A stretch of 64,000 bases of DNA from Nitrospira sp. (lineage in GTDB: Bacteria; Nitrospirota; Nitrospiria; Nitrospirales; Nitrospiraceae), in the NCBI GenBank assembly GCA_005116885.1, contig SWDP01000011.1, forward strand, positions 12,391-76,390. Reading direction: 5' to 3'. Under the pieces are notes generated by a model. That model was not told where the DNA came from. It did not search any database and saw nothing but the letters and a program-made list of their open reading frames with translations. Below, in pieces: positions 24,898-55,329 of the stretch; position 1 is the stretch's first letter; every line of letters starts with the position of its first letter. Made by a program: the position numbers and the translations under genes.

Positions 24898-25524
24898 GTG
24901 AATGCCATCTGTGAGAACCGGCGGTCAACCATGAAGACAACAAGCATAATTCTGATTGGATGTGCTGCACTGCTCGTGGCAGCTGGCCCGGGCTTTCCTG
25001 AGACAAGTATGAGCGGCCACCTTCGACAGATTAGCCCAATGCGGCAGGACTCCCTCAAAGTCCCTTCTCTCAACGATGTGCCGAGGCACGCGTCGTCTCC
25101 AGCTCCAACCGTGGCAGCCGGCGATGGGGATGTCCAACCAGTCGACCCCAATTCAATATTGGAGTCGGTGGGTGTTCGCTCCTATGACCCTTCTGGCCGA
25201 CGCGATCCGTTCGCCCCGGTGCTGCAATTGTTGGGACTTGGACCTATTGATCCCACATTACCTCCGCTCCAACGTGTCGGACTTACGGAGATGAACTTGA
25301 TCGCCGTGATATGGGGGGCCTACGGCTATACGGCTATGGTTCAGACTCCAGATGGAAACGGGTATACGGTGCGTCGGGGAACGCGAATCGGTCCCAACAA
25401 TGGCGTGGTGAGCGCTGTGACGGAGAAGGGTATTGTGGTGCAAGAACGGTTTACAGATGTGTATGGGAGCAAACAGGAGCGGGAATATGTCAAGCTCCTT
25501 CACCCGAAAGAGGGCCTAGAATGA
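24898..25524 (+). CDS. pilP: Type IV pilus assembly protein PilP
   Basis: YDPSGRRDPFAPVLQL, LTEMNLIAVIWGAYGYTAMVQTPDGNGYTVRRGTRIGPNNG. Confidence 0.9.
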   Translation: MNAICENRRSTMKTTSIILIGCAALLVAAGPGFPETSMSGHLRQISPMRQDSLKVPSLNDVPRHASSPAPTVAAGDGDVQPVDPNSILESVGVRSYDPSGRRDPFAPVLQLLGLGPIDPTLPPLQRVGLTEMNLIAVIWGAYGYTAMVQTPDGNGYTVRRGTRIGPNNGVVSAVTEKGIVVQERFTDVYGSKQEREYVKLLHPKEGLE

Positions 25525-28094: not shown

Positions 28095-29276
28095 TTGAGC
28101 AGGGCTGGAATAGCAGAACAGATTGTGCCGGTGGTCTTGGGGCCACGAAGCTATGACATCGTCCTCCATCCTGGCTTACTTTCGACAGTGGGCGACAGGC
28201 TGCATACCCTTACGACCTCTCCGAAGATCGCCGTTGTGACAGATAGGCATGTGGCAAGCCATTATCTTCACAAGACGCTCCGATCGCTTCGCAAGGCAGG
28301 ATACGACCCGACGGAAATTATCTTGCCTCCGGGAGAGCAAACGAAGACGCTTGGAACAGTCGCCAAGGTTCTCGACGCGTTGGCCAAGCATAAGTTCGAA
28401 CGCCAATCACTGTTGTTGGCCCTCGGTGGTGGAGTGATTGGCGATGTGACAGGTTTTGCTGCCGCGATTTATCAGCGAGGAATTCCGTTCGTGCAAGTGC
28501 CGACCACGCTTGTGGCTCAAGTGGATTCCAGTGTGGGGGGCAAAACCGGTGTGGACCATCGGTTGGGGAAAAATCTCATCGGAGCGTTTTATCAGCCACG
28601 TGCAGTATTGATCGATCCGCTCACGCTGCGCACTCTGCCAGGCCGCGAATGGATTGCCGGTTTGGCTGAAGTGATCAAATACGGCATTATCGCCGACGAA
28701 GGGTTCTTCGCGTTTTTGGAACGAGAGATTTCCGGGCTGTTGAAATTGGAAAAAGAGCCGGTTCTCCACGTGATTAAACGATCGTGCGAGATCAAGGCGG
28801 AAGTAGTTGCCGCTGACGAGCGGGAGTCGAACCGTCGGCGCGTTCTCAATTATGGTCACACGATCGGACATGCCCTTGAGGCACTCTCAGGCTATCGTGG
28901 GTTGGTTCATGGTGAAGCGGTGGGGATTGGGTTAGTGCAAGAAGCGGATTTGGCTTGCCATATGGGTCTCTGCGGGCGCGACGTGGTTGAACGGATCAGA
29001 ACCCTGGTGCAGCGTGCCGGGCTGTCCGATCACGTTTCACCGTCATCTTTTTCTCGCCTTTGGAGTGCCATGCAGCATGACAAAAAAGTGGTTGGGGGGC
29101 AGGTCGTCGGAGTGTGGCCGGTCAAGATTGGGGAAGTGGTGATTCGACCAATCGAGGAGCAGGTGTGTGCCGAGTGGTTTCGGTGCATGCATGGCCGTGG
29201 GAACCGCGTATCGAACGGCCATCGGCCAGGCAGGCTATCCGGCGAAAGAGTCGCACGCAAAGGTACATCTCAATGA
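28095..29276 (+). CDS. aroB: 3-dehydroquinate synthase
   Basis: LPPGEQTKTLGTV, ALGGGVIGDVTGFAAAIYQRGIPFVQVPTTLVAQVDSSVGGKTGVDH; TTG start. Confidence 0.95.
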   Translation: MSRAGIAEQIVPVVLGPRSYDIVLHPGLLSTVGDRLHTLTTSPKIAVVTDRHVASHYLHKTLRSLRKAGYDPTEIILPPGEQTKTLGTVAKVLDALAKHKFERQSLLLALGGGVIGDVTGFAAAIYQRGIPFVQVPTTLVAQVDSSVGGKTGVDHRLGKNLIGAFYQPRAVLIDPLTLRTLPGREWIAGLAEVIKYGIIADEGFFAFLEREISGLLKLEKEPVLHVIKRSCEIKAEVVAADERESNRRRVLNYGHTIGHALEALSGYRGLVHGEAVGIGLVQEADLACHMGLCGRDVVERIRTLVQRAGLSDHVSPSSFSRLWSAMQHDKKVVGGQVVGVWPVKIGEVVIRPIEEQVCAEWFRCMHGRGNRVSNGHRPGRLSGERVARKGTSQ

Positions 29277-30538
29277 CGATGAAACGCACGCCATCTGTGG
29301 CGTATCTGCAACAGGCATTGCGGGAAAAAACACGCGAAGTCGATGTCCTCCATCGGATCTCTGCGTCGATCAGCAATCAATTGGATCTCGAAGCCATTCT
29401 CAAACATATCGTCGACGTCGTCGTAGAAGTCACGAAGGCGGATGCCTGCCTCCTCTATCTATTGTCGGACAGTCAAGATGAACTCATTCTTCGCGCATCG
29501 AAAAATCCTCATCCCAAACTGATCGGTCGCATCACAATTGGATTAGGCGAGGGCATCACCGGGTGGGTGGCGCAGGAACGGACGCGCGTTGTGATTCCGA
29601 GTAATGCGAACGACGATCCACGGTTCAAGTTTTTTCATAACCTTCCGGAAGACCGCTATCAAGCATTTGTCTCTGTTCCGATCATGGCCAAAAAGGAAGT
29701 GGTCGGCGTCATCAATGTCCAACATAAGCGCCCCAGGCGCTATCAACCTGATGAGATCGCGCTCCTTTCGACGATCGCCACTCAAGTTGGAGGAGCGATT
29801 GAAAATGCGCGGCTGTACGATCAAATGCAACGCAAAGCATTACAGGTAGAGACACTGTCGCAGGTCTCGGAAACAGTGGCATCCAATCGATTGATCAAGG
29901 ATGTCCTCCAGCTTCTTGTGACGATGACGGCGCAGATGATGAACTCGAAGATCTGCTCGATCATGCTGTTGGACGAAGCCAGCGGGGAATTGCGGATTGC
30001 GGCAACACAAAGCCTCAGCGAGCAGTATCGCCGGAAGCCCAATCTTAAGATCGGGCAAGGCATTAGCGGGCGTGCAGTGAAAGACCGACGGTCGATCATT
30101 GTGCTCGATGTGTCCACTGAGCGGGACTATATGTATCCGGATATGGCCAAGAAGGAGGGGCTGTGCTCTTTGCTTTCAGTCCCGATGATGGTGCGTGATA
30201 AGGCCTTGGGCGTGATCAATAGCTACACGTCCGTTCCGCATGTATTCACCGGCGAAGAGGTCAAATTGCTTCAGGCCATTGCCAATCAGGCTGCCGTGGC
30301 TATCGAGCATACGACCCTGATTGAGAAGTCGCATGAGATGCAGGAAGCCCTGGCGGTTCGGAAGCTTATGGAGCGGGCCAAAGGCTACCTGATGCGTTCG
30401 AAGAAGCTGACCGAAGAAGAGGCTTTCAAACTCATTCAACGGCAAAGTATGGATTTTAGAAAGTCGATGCGCGAGATTGCTGAGGCGGTGCTTCTCGCTG
30501 GAGAACTCGATCAACGGGTTGAGAAGCAGCGTGGATAG
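29273..30538 (+). CDS. GAF-GAF-ANTAR domain transcription antitermination regulator
   Basis: Two GAF-type domains; C-terminal ANTAR: LMERAKGYLMRSKKLTEEEAFKLIQRQSMDFRKSMREIAEAVLLA; ATGA overlap with aroB stop. Confidence 0.88.
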   Translation: MTMKRTPSVAYLQQALREKTREVDVLHRISASISNQLDLEAILKHIVDVVVEVTKADACLLYLLSDSQDELILRASKNPHPKLIGRITIGLGEGITGWVAQERTRVVIPSNANDDPRFKFFHNLPEDRYQAFVSVPIMAKKEVVGVINVQHKRPRRYQPDEIALLSTIATQVGGAIENARLYDQMQRKALQVETLSQVSETVASNRLIKDVLQLLVTMTAQMMNSKICSIMLLDEASGELRIAATQSLSEQYRRKPNLKIGQGISGRAVKDRRSIIVLDVSTERDYMYPDMAKKEGLCSLLSVPMMVRDKALGVINSYTSVPHVFTGEEVKLLQAIANQAAVAIEHTTLIEKSHEMQEALAVRKLMERAKGYLMRSKKLTEEEAFKLIQRQSMDFRKSMREIAEAVLLAGELDQRVEKQRG

Positions 30539-31622: not shown

Positions 31623-31650
31623 AGGCCCACATAACGGTATGGACTGAATA

Positions 31651-31716
31651 TTGGACAACGATGTCCGACGATTCAGCCGGATTGTACGAAGTGTAAGAAA
31701 AGGACAATGGCGTCCT
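31651..31716 (+). promoter_or_regulatory. Tandem hexaloop hairpins, candidate ANTAR-binding leader of the sensor kinase
   Basis: P1 TTGGAC-AACGAT-GTCCGA (31651-31668); P2 AGGAC-AATGGC-GTCCT (31701-31716); both loops have A1/G4. Confidence 0.75.
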
Positions 31717-31750
31717 GTCGGGATTGACAGAATGACCGGAAGGGCCTTTT
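31712..31750 (+). terminator. Putative intrinsic terminator overlapping P2
   Basis: GTCCTGTCGG / CCGGAAGGGC (9 of 10 pairs incl. G.U) followed by cTTTT. Confidence 0.55.
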
Positions 31751-31918
31751 CCTCTGCCACAGCATAGCCCTCCGCGGTCGTTCACGCATATCGAAACGAG
31801 CAGTAGTCACCGGCATGAGCAGGACCATTCCCGTCGCCTGTTACGGGGAGCGTCACGTGAGCGAGTGAACGTCCCGGTCGTAACGTAATGAGTGCGGTGC
31901 AGTAACGAGGCGAAAAGG

Positions 31919-34156
31919 ATGAATGACCATCCTGAGTCCAGAGATCCCAGGCCCTATTCTTGGCTGCCGATCCTTCTCGGTGTGCTGACGATCGCCACGC
32001 TGAGCATCGGCACAATCGCATTCCGCTACATCGAAACACGCATGGTTGCGACAGCAGGCGAAACCCTGGCCCAGACAGCCGCCGAAGTTTCGGACAAACT
32101 AGACCGATTTCTCTTTGAACGGCATGGCGATGTGTTGATGATGGCGAGGACATTCAGCGTGCAGTCATACAATCAGGAATTTCAGTCGGCCTATGTCGCG
32201 GGGCTGAGGACCGCGTATCCGGATTACTTGTGGATCGGCGCCACTGACGAACGAGGAAAGATTGTCGTAGCAACCGACCCGTCCACGGTAGGGCGTGATT
32301 ACAGCGCCGAACCCTGGTTTCAGGCCGTGCGTGACGGGCAAGGGGTCCATATGGGGGACGTGGAGCCATTCGCTGTGATGGGCGGTCCTGACGCCATAGC
32401 CGTGACAGCTCCCATCGCCGGACCGCGCGGAGAATTTTTGGGGGTCGTGACAACACGAGTGGAAATTCCTGGCCTTGAAGACGTCATGACGAGAACCCTA
32501 CTGGCATTCCGGCAGCGAGAGGGAATTTGGGGAGGGCTGGAGTATCAGTTCCTGTCCGAGAAAGGAGTGGCCTTCATCGATTCGGATCTTGAGCATAAGG
32601 GCCATGTCAATCTCAAACAACTCGGACTCCCGTCGGCGCTGTTACGAGAAGGCGCCTTGTCCGGTTACATTGAAGAGGAACACGAACATCGCCATGTTCC
32701 TGTTGTGACCGGGTATGCCAGGACTCAAGGCTTAGGTGATTATAAGGGTTTACATTGGACGGTGCTGATGCGTATGGATCGGCGCGATGTTCTGACGCCG
32801 ATTCGGGAAGTTCTCTGGAATCTTGGCTTGGCAGGGAGTGTCGTGGTGGTTCCGACGTTTGCGCTCCTGGTATGGACCGTCACACGTGTGAGAAGGGAAT
32901 ATCGGCGCGCGCAACAGGAGCGCGGGCTCGCCAGGGACGCTGAAGCGTCGCTGCGAAAGAGCGAGGCGCATACGCGGAGTATCGTCGATCTGGCGCTCGA
33001 TGGCTTCATCGGGATGGATACAGCGGGAATGATCACCGACTGGAACTTCCAAGCCGAAGAGATATTCGGCTGGTCCCGGCAAGAGGCAGTTGGGCGGCTC
33101 CTTGCAGCCACCATCATTCCGGCACAACATCGGGACGCCCACGAACAGGGATTGCGTCGTTTTCTTGCAACCGGCGTAGGACCGATGCTGAACACCAGGA
33201 TTGAGATCACTGGTGTCCATCGTGACGGACACGAGATTCCGATTGAACTAGCGATTTCGCCGTCCTTGGGACAGGGAGGCATCTACACGTTCAGTGCCTT
33301 CGTGCGTGATATTTCGGCACGAAAGCAGACGGAGTGGCAGAGCCGCATGCATGAAGAGGAACTGCAACGACTCAACGAGGCCTTGGACAGGCGTGTGCAG
33401 GCCCGCACGCAAGAGTTGGCTGCCGTCAACGATTCATTGGTTGCAGAAGTGACTGAACGGATGCAGACCGCGGCGTCTCTTGAACAGAGCCGGCAGGCAC
33501 TGCAAAAGTTGGCGTTTCAGTTGTTACGCGTGCAGGAGGAAGAGCGGCGTCGTATCTCGCGCGATCTGCATGACGACATCAATCAACGGCTTGCGTTGCT
33601 TGCCATGGATATCGAAGCGGTAGGACGGAAGCTCGATTCACCCGCAGATCATGTGGGACGGGCTGTGAGAGAAATACAAGAGCGGGTGGTGGAGTTGTCC
33701 GATGTGGTGCGGCACCTGGCCTATCAGCTTCATCCATCTATTCTCGATGATCTCGGGCTTCCGATTGCATTGCAGCGGCTCGTGGAAGATTTCACCGCTC
33801 GAAGCCATATCCGGGGGAGTTTTGAGCATAAGAATATCCCCGCAGCGGTCCCTCAGGAGATCGCGACCTGTCTCTATCGCATTACCCAGGAAAGTCTCAA
33901 CAACGTGGTTCGCCATGCAGAGGCGTCTCAAGTCGATGTGGACCTGACCGGGGCTCAATCGGAGCTGGTGGTGACGATTACAGATAATGGAGTAGGATTT
34001 GACTCCGAACAACTCCGGAACGGATCGCATGGACTGGGGCTGCTCGGCATGAAAGAGCGAGTCGCTTTGGTTCACGGGAACTTACACGTCGTGTCTGCAG
34101 TGGGGAAGGGAACGAGGGTACAGGTGGTGGTGCTCGTTCCAGCGGAGGTCGCATGA
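31919..34156 (+). CDS. Membrane sensor histidine kinase (extracytoplasmic sensor, PAS, HisKA_3/HATPase)
   Basis: N-terminal TM and second TM; PAS SIVDLALDGFIGMDTAGMITDWNFQAEEIFGWS; EEERRRISRDLHDDINQRLALLAMDIE; HATPase TDNGVGFD...GLGLLGMKERV. Confidence 0.88.
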   Translation: MNDHPESRDPRPYSWLPILLGVLTIATLSIGTIAFRYIETRMVATAGETLAQTAAEVSDKLDRFLFERHGDVLMMARTFSVQSYNQEFQSAYVAGLRTAYPDYLWIGATDERGKIVVATDPSTVGRDYSAEPWFQAVRDGQGVHMGDVEPFAVMGGPDAIAVTAPIAGPRGEFLGVVTTRVEIPGLEDVMTRTLLAFRQREGIWGGLEYQFLSEKGVAFIDSDLEHKGHVNLKQLGLPSALLREGALSGYIEEEHEHRHVPVVTGYARTQGLGDYKGLHWTVLMRMDRRDVLTPIREVLWNLGLAGSVVVVPTFALLVWTVTRVRREYRRAQQERGLARDAEASLRKSEAHTRSIVDLALDGFIGMDTAGMITDWNFQAEEIFGWSRQEAVGRLLAATIIPAQHRDAHEQGLRRFLATGVGPMLNTRIEITGVHRDGHEIPIELAISPSLGQGGIYTFSAFVRDISARKQTEWQSRMHEEELQRLNEALDRRVQARTQELAAVNDSLVAEVTERMQTAASLEQSRQALQKLAFQLLRVQEEERRRISRDLHDDINQRLALLAMDIEAVGRKLDSPADHVGRAVREIQERVVELSDVVRHLAYQLHPSILDDLGLPIALQRLVEDFTARSHIRGSFEHKNIPAAVPQEIATCLYRITQESLNNVVRHAEASQVDVDLTGAQSELVVTITDNGVGFDSEQLRNGSHGLGLLGMKERVALVHGNLHVVSAVGKGTRVQVVVLVPAEVA

Positions 34157-34797
34157 GTAAGCCTCGGGTCCTGTTGGGTGACGACCATACCCTGGTGTTG
34201 GAAGGATTTCGGAAACTGTTGGAGGATCGGTGCGAGATCGTCGGGGTGGCGGAGGATGGCCGTACACTGCTTCGAAAGGCCTACGAGTTGAAGCCTGACA
34301 TTATCACGCTCGATATCTCGATGCCGGAACTCAACGGGGTCGATGCGGCCAGGAAGTTAAAGAAGATTCTGCCTGACACCAGGCTGATCTTTGTGACGAT
34401 GCACGCGGATCAGGCCTATGTGAATGAAGCCTTCAAGGCCGGCGCTTCCGGCTATCTACTCAAACGATCCGCCGGGACAGAATTGCTTCAAGCCGTTCAA
34501 TCGGTCATGGATGGACAATGTTATGTCACTCCCTTGGTCGCAAAAGGTCTGGTGGAGTCGGCCATCACAAGAAAGATGCCTGCGGTTCTGAGTGACAAAC
34601 CCTTAACTGGGCGCCAACGCGAAGTGTTGCAACTCGTGGCCGAGGGAAAGACGGTGAAGGAGATTGCGTCGGCTCTCACGCTCTCGCCGAAGACGGTCGA
34701 ATTTCATAAATCGCAGATTATGACGCTCCTCGATCTTCACACGACGGCGGAGCTTACAAAATACGCCCTCGTCCACGGCCTCCTCACATCAGACTAG
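34153..34797 (+). CDS. NarL/LuxR-family response regulator
   Basis: Receiver domain LLGDDHTLVLEGF...DIITLDISMPELNGVDAARKLK; HTH LTGRQREVLQLVAEGKTVKEIASALTLSPKTVEFHKSQIMTLL. Confidence 0.92.
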   Translation: MSKPRVLLGDDHTLVLEGFRKLLEDRCEIVGVAEDGRTLLRKAYELKPDIITLDISMPELNGVDAARKLKKILPDTRLIFVTMHADQAYVNEAFKAGASGYLLKRSAGTELLQAVQSVMDGQCYVTPLVAKGLVESAITRKMPAVLSDKPLTGRQREVLQLVAEGKTVKEIASALTLSPKTVEFHKSQIMTLLDLHTTAELTKYALVHGLLTSD

Positions 34798-35028: not shown

Positions 35029-35062
35029 GCGCACAATGGCGTGCGTCGCGACGATGTCGTCG
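35029..35062 (+). promoter_or_regulatory. Hairpin pair upstream of porin 1, homologous to 53866-53899
   Basis: GCGCAC-AATGGC-GTGCGt and CGAC-GATGTC-GTCG. Confidence 0.6.
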
Positions 35063-35125: not shown

Positions 35126-36394
35126 ATGAAGATAGATCTAAAGAGACAGTGGAAAATGTGTGTGGTGACCGGGGTCGCCATGGCACTGGTGGCTGGGATG
35201 GCATCCACGGTCCCGAGCGCCTACGCCGGTGGCACGATCAAGGTTGACGACGACAAGTATATTTCCGTCGGAATGGGCATCCGTCAAAGTTTCAATATGG
35301 TAGAAGATGGGTCGGCGAGCGGGTCACAGTGGAGCAACAGCTTCGCGATCGACAACGCTCGTATCTATATCAACGGAGGGATTCATAAGTACGTCAAGTT
35401 TGCGTTCAACACCGAATGTTTTAGCTGTAATAATACTGTCGCCGCCGCAACAGGTGGTTCAGGTACGGTAGGCTTACTTGATGCGATCGGGCAGTTCGAG
35501 TTTACTGAGACAGTGAATTTCTGGATCGGGCGCACCCTGGTGCCGACAGAGCGTGGCGAACTGAACGGCCCCTTCTATCACGCGGTCTTCGACGGCTTTA
35601 GGACTCCATTTAATCCAGCCGATTTGAGCGCGGGATTCGGCGCAGGTGGGGCTGGTAAATATGGCCGTGACAATGGCGCGGTCTTCTTCGGGAAAGTCCA
35701 TCCAGGGGGGACTCATCTGCAATACGTCGCGTCGGTGTTCCAGGGGCTGCGGTCAAGTGCGACGGCAGGACCAAATCAAAGAGACAGTCTGAAGTACGCC
35801 GGGCGTCTCACGTGGAACTTGCTGAACGACGAGTCGAATCCCGGGTACTACACCAGCGGGACCTACTACGGGACAGCCGGGGATATTCTCGCGCTCGCGG
35901 TCGGGGGAGAATATCAGAACGCCGGCGCTGGTTCACTTGCAAATAAAAGCGCTTTTGGGAGTTTTGTCGGCGATGTTCTGTTTGAGAAAGTGCTCGATAA
36001 CAACAATGGCAAGACCAATGGCGTGTTCACGGCCAACGCTGAATACAAACGGTACTGGGCACAGGACCTAGCTGCCGCTGGGAATGCAGATTGTTTCTGC
36101 GTGTTTAGCGGAACGTCAGTCACCGCGTACGCCTTGTATCTGTTTCCACAGGAGGTAGGGATCGGGAGATTCCAGCCCTATGGGAGATATACCTTCGTGA
36201 ACAGTGTGCACACCAGCGCACTCGATGAATTTGAGTTTGGCACGAACTACGTCATTAGCGGTCACAATGCACGCATCTCGGCATTCTGGCGGACGGGCAA
36301 TCTGGCCCCCACGGGTGGGCCTGCGACGCTCGGCGCCAATCTGGGAGGTCGGCATCAAGATTCTGTCCATCTGGCCTTACAGTTGCAGTATTAA
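35126..36394 (+). CDS. Outer-membrane beta-barrel porin (porin 1) upstream of urt genes
   Basis: Signal peptide ...VAGMASTVPSAYAGG; alternating beta-barrel pattern; C-terminal aromatic (LALQLQY). Confidence 0.75.
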   Translation: MKIDLKRQWKMCVVTGVAMALVAGMASTVPSAYAGGTIKVDDDKYISVGMGIRQSFNMVEDGSASGSQWSNSFAIDNARIYINGGIHKYVKFAFNTECFSCNNTVAAATGGSGTVGLLDAIGQFEFTETVNFWIGRTLVPTERGELNGPFYHAVFDGFRTPFNPADLSAGFGAGGAGKYGRDNGAVFFGKVHPGGTHLQYVASVFQGLRSSATAGPNQRDSLKYAGRLTWNLLNDESNPGYYTSGTYYGTAGDILALAVGGEYQNAGAGSLANKSAFGSFVGDVLFEKVLDNNNGKTNGVFTANAEYKRYWAQDLAAAGNADCFCVFSGTSVTAYALYLFPQEVGIGRFQPYGRYTFVNSVHTSALDEFEFGTNYVISGHNARISAFWRTGNLAPTGGPATLGANLGGRHQDSVHLALQLQY

Positions 36395-43761: not shown

Positions 43762-45489
43762 ATGAAGATTCCTCGGCGACAATACAACGACCTCTACGGA
43801 CCGACGGCAGGGGATCGTATTCGCCTGGCCGATACGGAGTTGTTGATCGAGATCACACGCGATCTGACAGTGCCTGGGGAAGAGGCTAAGTTCGGTGGCG
43901 GCAAGGTCATCCGAGACGGCATGGGCCAGTCGCCTTCGGCCACCCGTGCACGAGGTGCGCTCGATCTTGTGATTACCAACGCGATCATTGTCGATTGGTG
44001 GGGGATCGTGAAGGCGGATATCGGCATCCGGGATGGCCGTATTGTGGGCATCGGCAAGGCCGGCAATCCCGACATGATGGAAGGCGTGACGAAGGGGATG
44101 GAGATCGGGGCTTGCACCGAAGTGCTTTCCGCTGAAGGCAAGATCATTACAGCGGGTGGAATCGATACGCACATTCATTTCATCTGTCCGCAGATTATTA
44201 ATGAGGCGTTGGCGAACGGGCTCACGACGTTGATCGGTGGCGGCACCGGTCCGGCAACCGGGACGAATGCGACGACCTGTACTCCCGGCGCCTGGAATAT
44301 CCATCGGATGCTGGAAGCCGCGGAAGGATTCCCGGTTAACCTAGGTTTTCTTGGGAAAGGCAATTCATCGTTGCCGGATGGTTTGCGCGAGCAGGTCGAA
44401 GCCGGGGCGATCGGACTCAAGTTGCACGAAGACTGGGGCACGACTCCGGCGGCGATTTCGACTTGCCTCGATGTTGCGGAAGAATTCGATATTCAGGTTG
44501 CGATCCACACGGATACGATAAACGAAGCCGGTTTTGTCGAAGATACGATTAAGGCGTTCAAAGGGAGGACGATTCACTCATTCCACACGGAAGGCGCCGG
44601 TGGTGGCCATGCTCCAGACATCATTAAGGTCTGTGGTGAGGCCAATGTCTTGCCCTCGTCCACGAATCCGACGATGCCGTTTACGGTGAATACGATGGAC
44701 GAGCATCTCGACATGCTGATGGTCTGCCACCATTTGAATCCGCGTGTGCCGGAGGATATCGCGTTTGCGGAATCGCGCATCCGGCGGGAAACGATTGCTG
44801 CTGAAGATATCCTGCACGATATGGGGGCCATTAGTATTATGTCGTCTGACTCGCAGGCGATGGGGCGTGTGGGGGAAGTTATTATTCGCACCTGGCAGAC
44901 GGCGCACAAGATGAAAGTGCAGCGGGGACATCTCTCTCAAACGGCGGCCGATAAGCTGGCCGGTTCCAACGATAACTTTCGTGTGCGGCGGTATATCTCG
45001 AAGTACACCATCAATCCAGCGATTGCGCACGGGATTGGGCATGAAGTCGGCTCAGTCGAAGTCGGCAAGTTGGCGGATCTTGTGCTGTGGAAGCCGGCAT
45101 TCTTCGGTGTGAAGCCTGAAATCGTGTTGAAGGGCGGGTTCCCCATGTCCGCTGCCATGGGAGATCCCAATGCGTCCATCCCCACACCGCAGCCGGTCCT
45201 CACCAGGCCCATGTTCGGGAGCTTTGGCCGCGCCTTGTTTTCCACCAGCTTGACCTTTCTATCCAAGGCCGCAATCGACCACGAAGTGCACAAGTCGCTC
45301 GGCTTGCAGAAGCGTGTCGCGGCGGTGAAGCAATGTCGCAACATCGGCAAGCGCGACATGAAGCTGAACGATGCGTTACCGCACATCGAGGTAGACCCAG
45401 AAACCTATGTGGTGAAGGCTGACGGGCAAATTCTCACATGCGATCCGATGGCGGTGTTACCAATGGCCCAACGCTATTTTCTATTCTGA
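43762..45489 (+). CDS. ureC: Urease subunit alpha
   Basis: [51 protein letters not shown]. Confidence 0.98.
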
Positions 45490-51271: not shown

Positions 51272-52129
51272 TCATCTCGTCACCACTTCTTCCGCAATGG
51301 CATCGGTCGCGGTCACGCGATGGTGTATGGGTTGCACCGGTCGATTGTTTCCCTTGATGATTGCGTTGAACGCCCGGATCTGCTCCTTGGACAGATGGAT
51401 GGGCGATTTCATGACGATCCACTTGACTCCCTCCGAACAAGGCGGAGTCGTCAACGAGCCGTCGTAACGGTAGCTTTTGTGGCTGTGTGGGAGGAGGTTG
51501 TCCACATCGACATGCACATGCTCGAAGTGCGATTCCACCCCCTTCTGCTTCGGAAGGTTTTCCCAGATCGGGTCAAAGGCTTTATTATGCACCCCTTGCT
51601 CGATGAACACGCCGACAACCGCCAGGGTGCCTGACGGGGATTTGTGCACGAAATGCATTTCCATCGGGTAATGCTTGCCATGGACAGTGTGCTCACTCGG
51701 GCTATGGAAGTGGAACTGGATCAGCTCGTAGTTGGTGTCTCCGATGGTGAGGGTGTCACCTTCCGTATAGTTGATCTGGATGGTATGGCCGTTATTGATT
51801 TCGTCGGCGACATGCTCGTGATGCACGATCTGCAGCTTTGCCGGGCTGAAATCGGATCGGAGTTTCGGGAGCGTTGCGGGAGCAGTTTTTTCGATATCGA
51901 TGGGCGACTGGTTCTGGCCGTTTTCACAAAGCGAAAAGTCTGGATCGATCTTGCCCCAGAACCGAGGCCCCTTTTCTCCTTCGTAGGTCCAGTGAGGCGT
52001 GTCGGAAGGAGGCGGCACTGCACGCGTCGTGATTTGTGGAACTGGGGGAGGGGCATCTTGTGCCCAAGCTAGAGGACTCAGAACTGTGACCATTGTCAAT
52101 CCGACCGTGCATGTAATCAGCTTCCTCAC
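51272..52129 (-). CDS. cah: Alpha-class carbonic anhydrase, exported
   Basis: Signal peptide; ENGQNQSPIDIEKT, ELIQFHFHSPSEHTVHGKHYPMEMHFVH, GSLTTPPCSEGVKWIVM. Confidence 0.93.
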   Translation of the reverse strand: MRKLITCTVGLTMVTVLSPLAWAQDAPPPVPQITTRAVPPPSDTPHWTYEGEKGPRFWGKIDPDFSLCENGQNQSPIDIEKTAPATLPKLRSDFSPAKLQIVHHEHVADEINNGHTIQINYTEGDTLTIGDTNYELIQFHFHSPSEHTVHGKHYPMEMHFVHKSPSGTLAVVGVFIEQGVHNKAFDPIWENLPKQKGVESHFEHVHVDVDNLLPHSHKSYRYDGSLTTPPCSEGVKWIVMKSPIHLSKEQIRAFNAIIKGNNRPVQPIHHRVTATDAIAEEVVTR

Positions 52130-52414: not shown

Positions 52415-52450
52415 AAAAAACGTCCTCAAGCCCGCTGGGGCTGGAGGACG
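52415..52450 (-). terminator. Intrinsic terminator in carbonic anhydrase leader, overlapping P2
   Basis: Minus strand: CGTCCTC-cagccccagcgggctt-GAGGACG-TTTTTT. Confidence 0.85.
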
Positions 52451-52498
52451 TCATTGTCCATACCATTTTTGAGGCCGGTTGGAAACGCCATTGTTTCC
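52446..52498 (-). promoter_or_regulatory. Tandem hexaloop hairpins, candidate ANTAR-binding leader of carbonic anhydrase
   Basis: Minus strand: P1 GGAAAC-AATGGC-GTTTCC (52481-52498), P2 GGAC-AATGAC-GTCC (52446-52459); A1/G4 in both loops. Confidence 0.85.
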
Positions 52499-52515
52499 CC
52501 TGTTCTCTGGCCGCT

Positions 52516-52545
52516 CTTATAACATGGCACAGAAAAATTCGTCAA
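52516..52545 (-). promoter_or_regulatory. Putative sigma70 promoter of carbonic anhydrase leader
   Basis: Minus strand TTGACG-N18-TATAAG. Confidence 0.55.
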
Positions 52546-53608: not shown

Positions 53609-53637
53609 TTGACAGATTATGGTGAGACAGGTATAAG
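53609..53637 (+). promoter_or_regulatory. Putative sigma70 promoter of porin 2 leader
   Basis: TTGACA-N17-TATAAG. Confidence 0.65.
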
Positions 53638-53684
53638 GGCGCGCAGGATAAGGGCCTCAAGGGGTTCTCATTCGAGGGAATGAG

Positions 53685-53750
53685 GGGGAACAATGGCGTT
53701 TCCCACAGGCCTCAAGAAAGAACATCAGTACGGTTTGGACAATGGCGTCC
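53685..53750 (+). promoter_or_regulatory. Tandem hexaloop hairpins, candidate ANTAR-binding leader of porin 2
   Basis: P1 GGGGAAC-AATGGC-GTTTCCC (53685-53704), P2 GGAC-AATGGC-GTCC (53737-53750). Confidence 0.85.
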
Positions 53751-53781
53751 TCCGGTCCCAACGGGCTAGAGGACGTTTTTT
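53746..53781 (+). terminator. Intrinsic terminator in porin 2 leader overlapping P2
   Basis: CGTCCTC-cggtcccaacgggcta-GAGGACG-TTTTTT. Confidence 0.88.
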
Positions 53782-53865
53782 ATTGGCTGGATTGTGCGTG
53801 GTAAGGGTCGGTGGGAATCGACAGGAACGTGAAAAGGCGAGTGGGCAGATAGGGTCTTGCGGTGT

Positions 53866-53899
53866 GCGCACAATGGCGTGCGCGGCGACAACGACGTCG
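53866..53899 (+). promoter_or_regulatory. Second hexaloop hairpin pair downstream of the terminator, homologous to 35029-35062
   Basis: GCGCAC-AATGGC-GTGCGC and CGAC-AACGAC-GTCG. Confidence 0.7.
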
Positions 53900-53955
53900 A
53901 GGTTGAGAGGCAAGGGAGCTAACCGAATCATCAATCGGATCAGGGAGGATGAATT

Positions 53956-55329
53956 ATGTCAGCACGCAGTCGTATTGGTCTAGGAATAGGCATGTGTGCC
54001 ATGGTCTCGCTGCTGGGCAGCAATGCTGTTTCGGCTGCGGATGCCGAAACCACCTGGAAGGAATTGGGCTTTAAGTTTTCCGGAGCGGCGGAAGCCTCCT
54101 ATACACAGAATTTCAATAATCCCAACACCAACCTCAATCAACTGAGGATCTTCGATACGCAGGCGAACTCATTCGTGCCGCAGGTGGCGCAGTTCATGGC
54201 GGAACGGCCTGCCACGGCAGGCAGTGCCACGGATCGGATCGGCTTTCGCGCGCGGGTCAATTTTGGGGCCCAATCCAGGTACTCTCGGGCCCGCACGAAT
54301 TACCAACCTGGCGCGGACAGCACCGAGCTGGATATCCATGAACTCTATGCCGAGTACATCGTCCCGATCGGCAACGGCCTGAAGATTCAAGCCGGAAAAA
54401 TCAATACTTTGATTGGGCTCGAGGTGATCAACAGTTGGGAGAATCCGAACTTCTCCCGCAGCTTTACGTTCGGCCTGGCGCAAGCCTTTACGGAGACCGG
54501 TATCCGGTTCACCTATCCGTTTACGTCATGGGCGACCGCGGCAGTCGGGCTCGTCAATGGGTGGGACAACATTGAGGATAACAACCGGGGCAAAACAGTC
54601 ACGTGGAACCTGGCCCTGACACCGCACGAGAAGTTCGGGGTAAGCTTTTACGGGTCCTACGGATCCGAACAGTCGAATGGCAATGCTCAGTTTGGTAATG
54701 CAGCCACCGGCGTCTGTGCGAACGGTAGCACCCAGTGCGATCCTGATGCCAAGCGGACGGTGGTGGGCGCGCTCATCACCATCAAGCCGACCGACAAGGA
54801 TACCCTCATCATTGAGCCCTATTACGGGAACGAAGCCAATGCCAGCTTTGCCAGAGGGGGAAGCACAACGGCGGGGGGTAACACTGGGCCAGCCAACGCT
54901 CGCTGGAATGCGATCCTTGCCTATTACACACATGACTTCAACGATCAAACGCAGCCCCATGCGTTCAGCATGCGGGTTCGTGGAGAGCTCTTCGAGGATG
55001 CCGGTGGAGCCCGTACCTGTATCGGAGGCAATAATTTCAACGGCGGCACAAATGTTTGTGCTGGTCAGATAAACGCCACTGGTTTTACACCTGGTGTTCC
55101 TGGTGCTCTTGGTTCTGGTGTTGGTGCTGGGTTTAATACGGCAACCGGCGGCGGACTTGAACAGACCCTCCAGTCGTACACCTTTACGCTTCAGTACAAG
55201 CCGGCGCCTTCGCTGCTTACGCGGGCGGAATTCCGGCATGACATCTCCAATAAGGACGCGTTCCTGTACGGCACTCGAGCAGTGGACAATCAGTCAACTC
55301 TGGGATTCTCAGTGGTCTACCTCTTCTAA
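53956..55329 (+). CDS. Outer-membrane beta-barrel porin (porin 2)
   Basis: Signal peptide ...SNAVSAAD; FKFSGAAEASYTQNFNNPNTNLNQLRIFD; C-terminal FSVVYLF. Confidence 0.8.
   Translation: MSARSRIGLGIGMCAMVSLLGSNAVSAADAETTWKELGFKFSGAAEASYTQNFNNPNTNLNQLRIFDTQANSFVPQVAQFMAERPATAGSATDRIGFRARVNFGAQSRYSRARTNYQPGADSTELDIHELYAEYIVPIGNGLKIQAGKINTLIGLEVINSWENPNFSRSFTFGLAQAFTETGIRFTYPFTSWATAAVGLVNGWDNIEDNNRGKTVTWNLALTPHEKFGVSFYGSYGSEQSNGNAQFGNAATGVCANGSTQCDPDAKRTVVGALITIKPTDKDTLIIEPYYGNEANASFARGGSTTAGGNTGPANARWNAILAYYTHDFNDQTQPHAFSMRVRGELFEDAGGARTCIGGNNFNGGTNVCAGQINATGFTPGVPGALGSGVGAGFNTATGGGLEQTLQSYTFTLQYKPAPSLLTRAEFRHDISNKDAFLYGTRAVDNQSTLGFSVVYLF

Follow-up and report, generated by a model that had tools for sequence, protein, structure and literature searches.

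ANTAR-domain antiterminators act on leader RNAs that contain two hairpins, the second of which overlaps an intrinsic terminator, and in both hairpins the hexaloop has A as its first and G as its fourth base (A1 and G4) (PMC3369931; PMC8934654). In the eut leaders of Enterococcus faecalis, the targets of EutV, the linker between the two hairpins is 5–12 nt, and its lengthening abolished or sharply cut EutV antitermination both in vitro and in vivo (PMC3369931; PMC8934654). A search for ANTAR targets in actinobacteria allowed linkers of 2–25 nt (PMC8164766). For Nitrospira, a review gave no hit, under regulation terms, that names a regulator for the nitrogen gene cluster (PMC6311188).

The window analyzed here, a stretch of 64,000 nt from a Nitrospira genome, contains a leader of this kind upstream of the gene for an alpha-type carbonic anhydrase whose start resembles a signal peptide (51272–52129, minus strand; PF00194, E = 2e-48), which is the putative controlled gene. 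A sigma-70-like promoter, TTGACG-N18-TATAAG (52516–52545, minus strand; –35 at 52545–52540 and –10 at 52521–52516, with a spacer of 18 nt), recurs as TTGACA-N17/18-TATAAG in the same position in the orthologous leaders of three other genomes (G009, G017, and G008). On the same strand it is followed by hairpin P1, GGAAAC-AATGGC-GTTTCC (52481–52498), whose pairing is also backed by compensatory changes, by a linker of 21 nt (52480–52460), and by hairpin P2, GGAC-AATGAC-GTCC (52446–52459), the predicted antiterminator. The two six-base loops thus stand in tandem and both have A1 and G4. The initial annotation had quoted the promoter, P1, a linker of ~21 nt, and P2, and all of these lie where it placed them, exact to the base. 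What it overlooked is that the strand GTCC is common to P2 and to an intrinsic terminator (52415–52450), CGTCCTC...GAGGACG (52450–52421) followed by TTTTTT (52420–52415), the 5' arm of which is the 3' arm of P2 and the stem of which covaries. Because GTCC is shared, P2 and the terminator are mutually exclusive. This is also how the RNA is predicted to fold: a nascent transcript that ends at P2 forms the two hairpins, and the complete leader forms P1 and the terminator (–36.8 kcal/mol, vs –28.7 kcal/mol with P2 forced). From the T-run to the start codon of the carbonic anhydrase is ~285 nt. The element, which the initial annotation left unnamed, is, judged by its sequence, an ANTAR-type dual-hexaloop antiterminator.

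The order of elements in the carbonic anhydrase leader (52545–52415, minus strand) is that of the leader of porin 2 (53609–53781, plus strand), a BBP2 family protein (53956–55329, plus strand; PF07642, E = 7e-58), and 1.2 kb separates the two leaders. Specifically, the porin 2 leader has the promoter TTGACA-N17-TATAAG (53609–53637, with TTGACA from 53609 and TATAAG from 53632), P1 (53685–53704), a linker of 32 nt, P2 (53737–53750), and a terminator that overlaps P2 (53746–53781), its predicted stem at 53746–53775 being followed by a T-run. The initial annotation had called the carbonic anhydrase leader a near copy of the porin 2 leader, and that description is borne out, with 74 of 85 aligned positions identical (87%) and 12 gap columns, nearly all of which are in the linker. 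The sequence GGCCTCAA, said to be common to both linkers, is indeed in both and is part of a linker motif, ~ACCGGCCTCAAGATAGTACGGCATGG, that is common across the genus. The further claim, that this likeness marks a conserved RNA element, holds: the element recurs, with compensatory changes in P1 and in the terminator stem, before unrelated genes in the genus and the class.

To avoid circularity, the source genome and the three genomes closest to it were left out when a covariance model, R2, was built from 29 leaders of other genomes. On the whole source genome R2 finds the leaders of porin 2 (E = 5e-22), of the carbonic anhydrase (7e-20), and of a histidine kinase operon (1.5e-6), and the next match is at 0.21. 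These are the only three clear matches, and all are within 24 kb of a gene for an ANTAR protein. Since R2 is independent of the source genome and finds the first two leaders at these values, chance is excluded. Matches at E ≥ 0.2 were discarded as weak, and the top one among them (L281) does not have such a leader by eye. An exact search with GGACAATGRCGTCC hit 30 of the 32 genomes in the genus, and its reversed control gave one match in total. Matches with a single mismatch elsewhere in the genome (C11, C14, and C21) were dropped because P1 and a terminator were not seen by eye, and an exact match of the core at 25397 falls within a coding gene.

Both folds are conserved. In leader set A2 (30 leaders), pairing in the dual hairpin reaches 99.4%, three P1 pairs show compensatory changes, and shuffled or slid partners score much worse; the terminator structure is 98.3% paired and has compensatory changes of its own. 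In an independent set, A3, which is without the source genome and its near relatives, the values are 97.8% and 97.5%, respectively, both with compensatory changes. P2 is almost invariant, and its pairing is supported by this strict conservation rather than by covariation. A1 and G4 of both hexaloops are invariant in 30 of 30 leaders (A2) and 29 of 29 (A3), although the sets were gathered partly by loop criteria, so that the invariance of A1 is in part selected, and elements with G at position 1 occur outside these sets. The leaders of kinase genes were left out of the covariation counts because MAFFT misplaced them by four columns. Across the genus the median linker is ~26 nt long, and relative to the range of 2–25 nt used for actinobacteria that of the carbonic anhydrase leader falls inside and that of the porin 2 leader outside, this length being a search criterion and not a strict definition.

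The proposed trans-acting antiterminator is encoded in the same window by a gene for a GAF-GAF-ANTAR protein (29273–30538, plus strand). Its ANTAR domain (PF03861) scores 66.2 bits vs a curated cut-off of 27.3 and aligns with those of the structurally solved proteins Rv1626 (1s8n), EutV (6wsh), and NasR (4akk), and more weakly with that of AmiR. A Pfam search of the genome found no other ANTAR gene, although at ~84% completeness a second one is conceivable, and of the 31 genomes of the genus with an ANTAR match, 30 have exactly one and the other (G027) has two. The GAF domains match best the models of PtsP and NifA, far below the cut-off, which hints at a nitrogen-related ligand. The elements are surrounded by a nitrogen cluster (36531–57485, plus strand) that runs from urtA (TIGR03407) onward and includes urease, nadE, amt, and glnB. 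The genome encodes a subunit of ammonia monooxygenase (PF02461), and Nitrospira sp. CG24A has an identical ANTAR protein, so that the source is most likely a comammox-type Nitrospira.

Other leaders in the window carry related elements. The third terminator-type element (31649–31751, plus strand; R2, E = 1.5e-6), with the loops AACGAT and AATGGC, is in the leader of the operon for a dCache-PAS-HisKA_3 histidine kinase and a LuxR-type response regulator (31892–34797, plus strand) and is kept in relatives. The porin 2 leader holds a second dual-hexaloop pair (53865–53899, plus strand), with the loops AATGGC and AACGAC and without a terminator, which lies ~57 nt before the start codon and is kept in many porin 2 orthologues. 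A similar hairpin pair without a terminator (35029–35062, plus strand), which has the loops AATGGC and GATGTC, so that position 1 of the second loop is G, and which scores weakly with the models, precedes porin 1 (35126–36394, plus strand), a protein that resembles a beta-barrel outer-membrane protein by eye and has no Pfam match. These terminator-less pairs, ~57–65 nt ahead of the start codons and kept in relatives, are possible translational ANTAR sites. No clear dual hexaloop is seen ahead of urtA in the window, and genome G015 has one at that place.

In Rfam searches, no family was found at gathering score at the carbonic anhydrase or porin 2 leaders. At a relaxed threshold, where the remaining matches were of the kind expected by chance, the narK RNA (RF03032) matched the second porin 2 pair (53836–53900) with 18.3 bits, below the gathering score of 43.2, so that the pair is not assigned to this family; the carbonic anhydrase leader gave no narK match at the same relaxed threshold. 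The second porin 2 pair aligns with the consensus of the narK RNA over its full length. This consensus holds two ANTAR-type hexaloop hairpins, which suggests that the narK RNA is itself an ANTAR target.

At E ≤ 1, all but one of the 32 genomes of the genus carry the element, and it occurs across many genera of the class. By the first downstream gene, its targets in the genus are BBP2 porins (22 leaders), formate/nitrite transporters (15 elements, some in tandem), nitrate-type ABC binding proteins of the NMT1-like family (11 elements), which in our reading are NrtA-like, histidine kinases (9), and carbonic anhydrases (3), with urtA and porin 1 as single cases. In N. defluvii and other Nitrospirales, an element is directly downstream of the ANTAR gene, ahead of nadE, and beyond the genus another lies ahead of a NirB-like reductase. 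Some leaders, belonging to an NrtA-like and a lipoprotein-like gene, carry two terminator-type elements in series (L112, 14412–14500 and 14527–14618; L113, 4066–4273; L169, 411–588).

Among 150 genomes of the class, ANTAR is found in 106 and the element in 72 (E ≤ 0.001). ANTAR is present in 71 of the 72 genomes with the element, and the element in one of the 44 genomes without ANTAR (Fisher p ~1e-14, a nominal value as the genomes are related). The lone exception, G106, is an amoA-bearing genome without ANTAR that has an intact-looking element (C17, 157080–157171) with no clear gene close downstream. In the sampled amoA-bearing genomes, ANTAR is present in 7 of 7 from the genus of the window and absent in 30 of 30 from a sister genus (g2). 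Comammox bacteria are split into clades A and B with differing nitrogen genes (PMC6311188), and these two groups of amoA genomes may correspond to the two clades.

We propose that the carbonic anhydrase leader is an ANTAR-responsive transcription attenuator with the GAF-GAF-ANTAR protein as its antiterminator, a reading in which we have high confidence. It builds on what is observed, namely the anatomy of the leader, the mutual exclusivity of its folds, its conservation and covariation, and its linkage to and co-occurrence with the ANTAR gene. In this mechanism, transcription would begin at the TATAAG promoter, and in the default fold of P1 with the intrinsic terminator most transcripts would end before the carbonic anhydrase gene. 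The active GAF-GAF-ANTAR protein would recognize both hexaloops by their A1 and G4 as they emerge and would hold P2, which then occupies GTCC, so that the terminator would not form and the polymerase would read into the gene. Porin 2 and the histidine kinase operon would be under the same control. Since the nitrite, nitrate, nadE, and porin genes of relatives carry the element, the signal is most likely nitrogen status, and the carbonic anhydrase was probably recruited to handle CO2/bicarbonate that comes from urea hydrolysis or is needed at the cell surface. Binding by the protein, activation as the direction of control, the signal sensed, and the part played by the carbonic anhydrase are what we infer of the mechanism. 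It should be noted that some features count against the attenuator reading: the linker of 21 nt here and 32 nt in porin 2 vs 5–12 nt in eut, the G at loop position 1 in several elements, and the missing element at some carbonic anhydrase orthologues.

Short palindromes conserved in sequence, with a gene for a LuxR-type response regulator close by, would also suit DNA operators, that is, inverted repeats to which a response regulator or another transcription factor binds, with the terminator being incidental. We consider this very improbable, as the sites are downstream of the promoter, the loops are asymmetric and always oriented in the direction of transcription, 21 of 30 leaders have G-U at one of the P1 pairs, which suits RNA but not a DNA dyad, and P2 in this leader type always overlaps a terminator stem that itself covaries. 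An RNA switch could also work without an ANTAR protein, as a metabolite-binding riboswitch or a protein-independent attenuator, and the alternative P2 and terminator folds ahead of metabolic genes, like the lack of an Rfam family at gathering score, would be compatible with one. However, the known aptamer classes are larger and more complex than this element, the two near-identical A1/G4 hexaloop hairpins match the ANTAR target, and the presence of the element tracks the ANTAR gene, all of which leave such a switch with hardly any likelihood.

The remaining explanation is that the carbonic anhydrase leader is a functionless local duplication of the porin 2 leader, inserted upstream of the carbonic anhydrase, in line with the identity of 87%, the distance of 1.2 kb, and the absence of the element at some orthologues. 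The initial annotation would have taken absence of the element at orthologous loci as a refutation, and at six carbonic anhydrase loci with upstream sequence the answer was mixed. P2 and the terminator are present in three, the source genome, G009, and G017 (orthologues of 93 and 91% identity); in G008 (78%) the promoter and a relic of P1 are kept but P2 and the terminator are lost; and in G010 (75%) and G023 (82%) no element was found within ~480 bases upstream. This mixed outcome fits a regulatory site that is gained and lost, and from the pattern control of the carbonic anhydrase is, on comparison of these loci, limited to close relatives, the element as such being old. In G009 and G017, P1 is degenerate and the linkers differ, yet P2 and the terminator are kept (91–93% protein identity). 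Duplication may be the origin of the carbonic anhydrase leader, but the retained switch argues for function, and a leader without function is improbable.

As an ANTAR-responsive attenuator, the element is of a known kind, set apart by the architecture of its regulator, by longer linkers, by some loops that begin with G, by forms in tandem or lacking a terminator, by its phylum, and by having a carbonic anhydrase among its targets. It shares with the EutV system the dual A1/G4 hexaloops, the overlap with the terminator, and several leaders per protein (PMC3369931; PMC8934654), but has a GAF-GAF-ANTAR protein in place of a phosphorylated REC-ANTAR protein, linkers of 21–32 nt rather than 5–12 nt, and, unlike eut, genes for nitrogen metabolism, porins, and a carbonic anhydrase. 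With NasR (nasF leader) and NasT it shares an ANTAR protein, nitrogen assimilation targets, and the RNA logic (PMC3369931; PMC7496416), but these are nitrate antiterminators, and in Nitrospira the sensor is a GAF pair and the signal is not necessarily nitrate. Actinobacterial ANTAR targets also have dual hexaloops, often near the start codon and without a terminator (PMC8164766), as in the second porin 2 pair, whereas the carbonic anhydrase element includes a terminator and comes from another phylum. In the open-licence literature, taken without supplements, nothing was found that links ANTAR or antitermination to Nitrospira, Nitrospirota, or carbonic anhydrase, and earlier target lists may include Nitrospira.

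It is quite possible, although we stop short of favoring it, that these features together define a Nitrospirota variant of the ANTAR system, with long, partly conserved linkers (14–35 nt, median 26), tolerance of G at loop position 1, tandem attenuators, terminator-less pairs near start codons, and a single GAF-GAF-ANTAR protein dedicated to nitrogen regulation, which one of two comammox lineages lost together with its elements. Such a variant would have to differ in the geometry of protein and RNA, given that EutV fails with long linkers, and the long-linker leaders allow a test of the successive-hairpin model of ANTAR antitermination. Comammox and nitrite-oxidizing Nitrospira are major nitrifiers, for which the element offers a testable switch at the RNA level, with a candidate regulator and a set of targets, and it adds carbonic anhydrase and porins to the putative ANTAR targets. 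The comammox lineages with and without the system make its role in nitrogen choice directly testable. Elsewhere in the window, Rfam 5_ureB_sRNA (RF02514) matches with 95.5 bits at 43908–44203 (minus strand), antisense to the urease alpha gene, a match that may merely reflect the conserved urease coding sequence.
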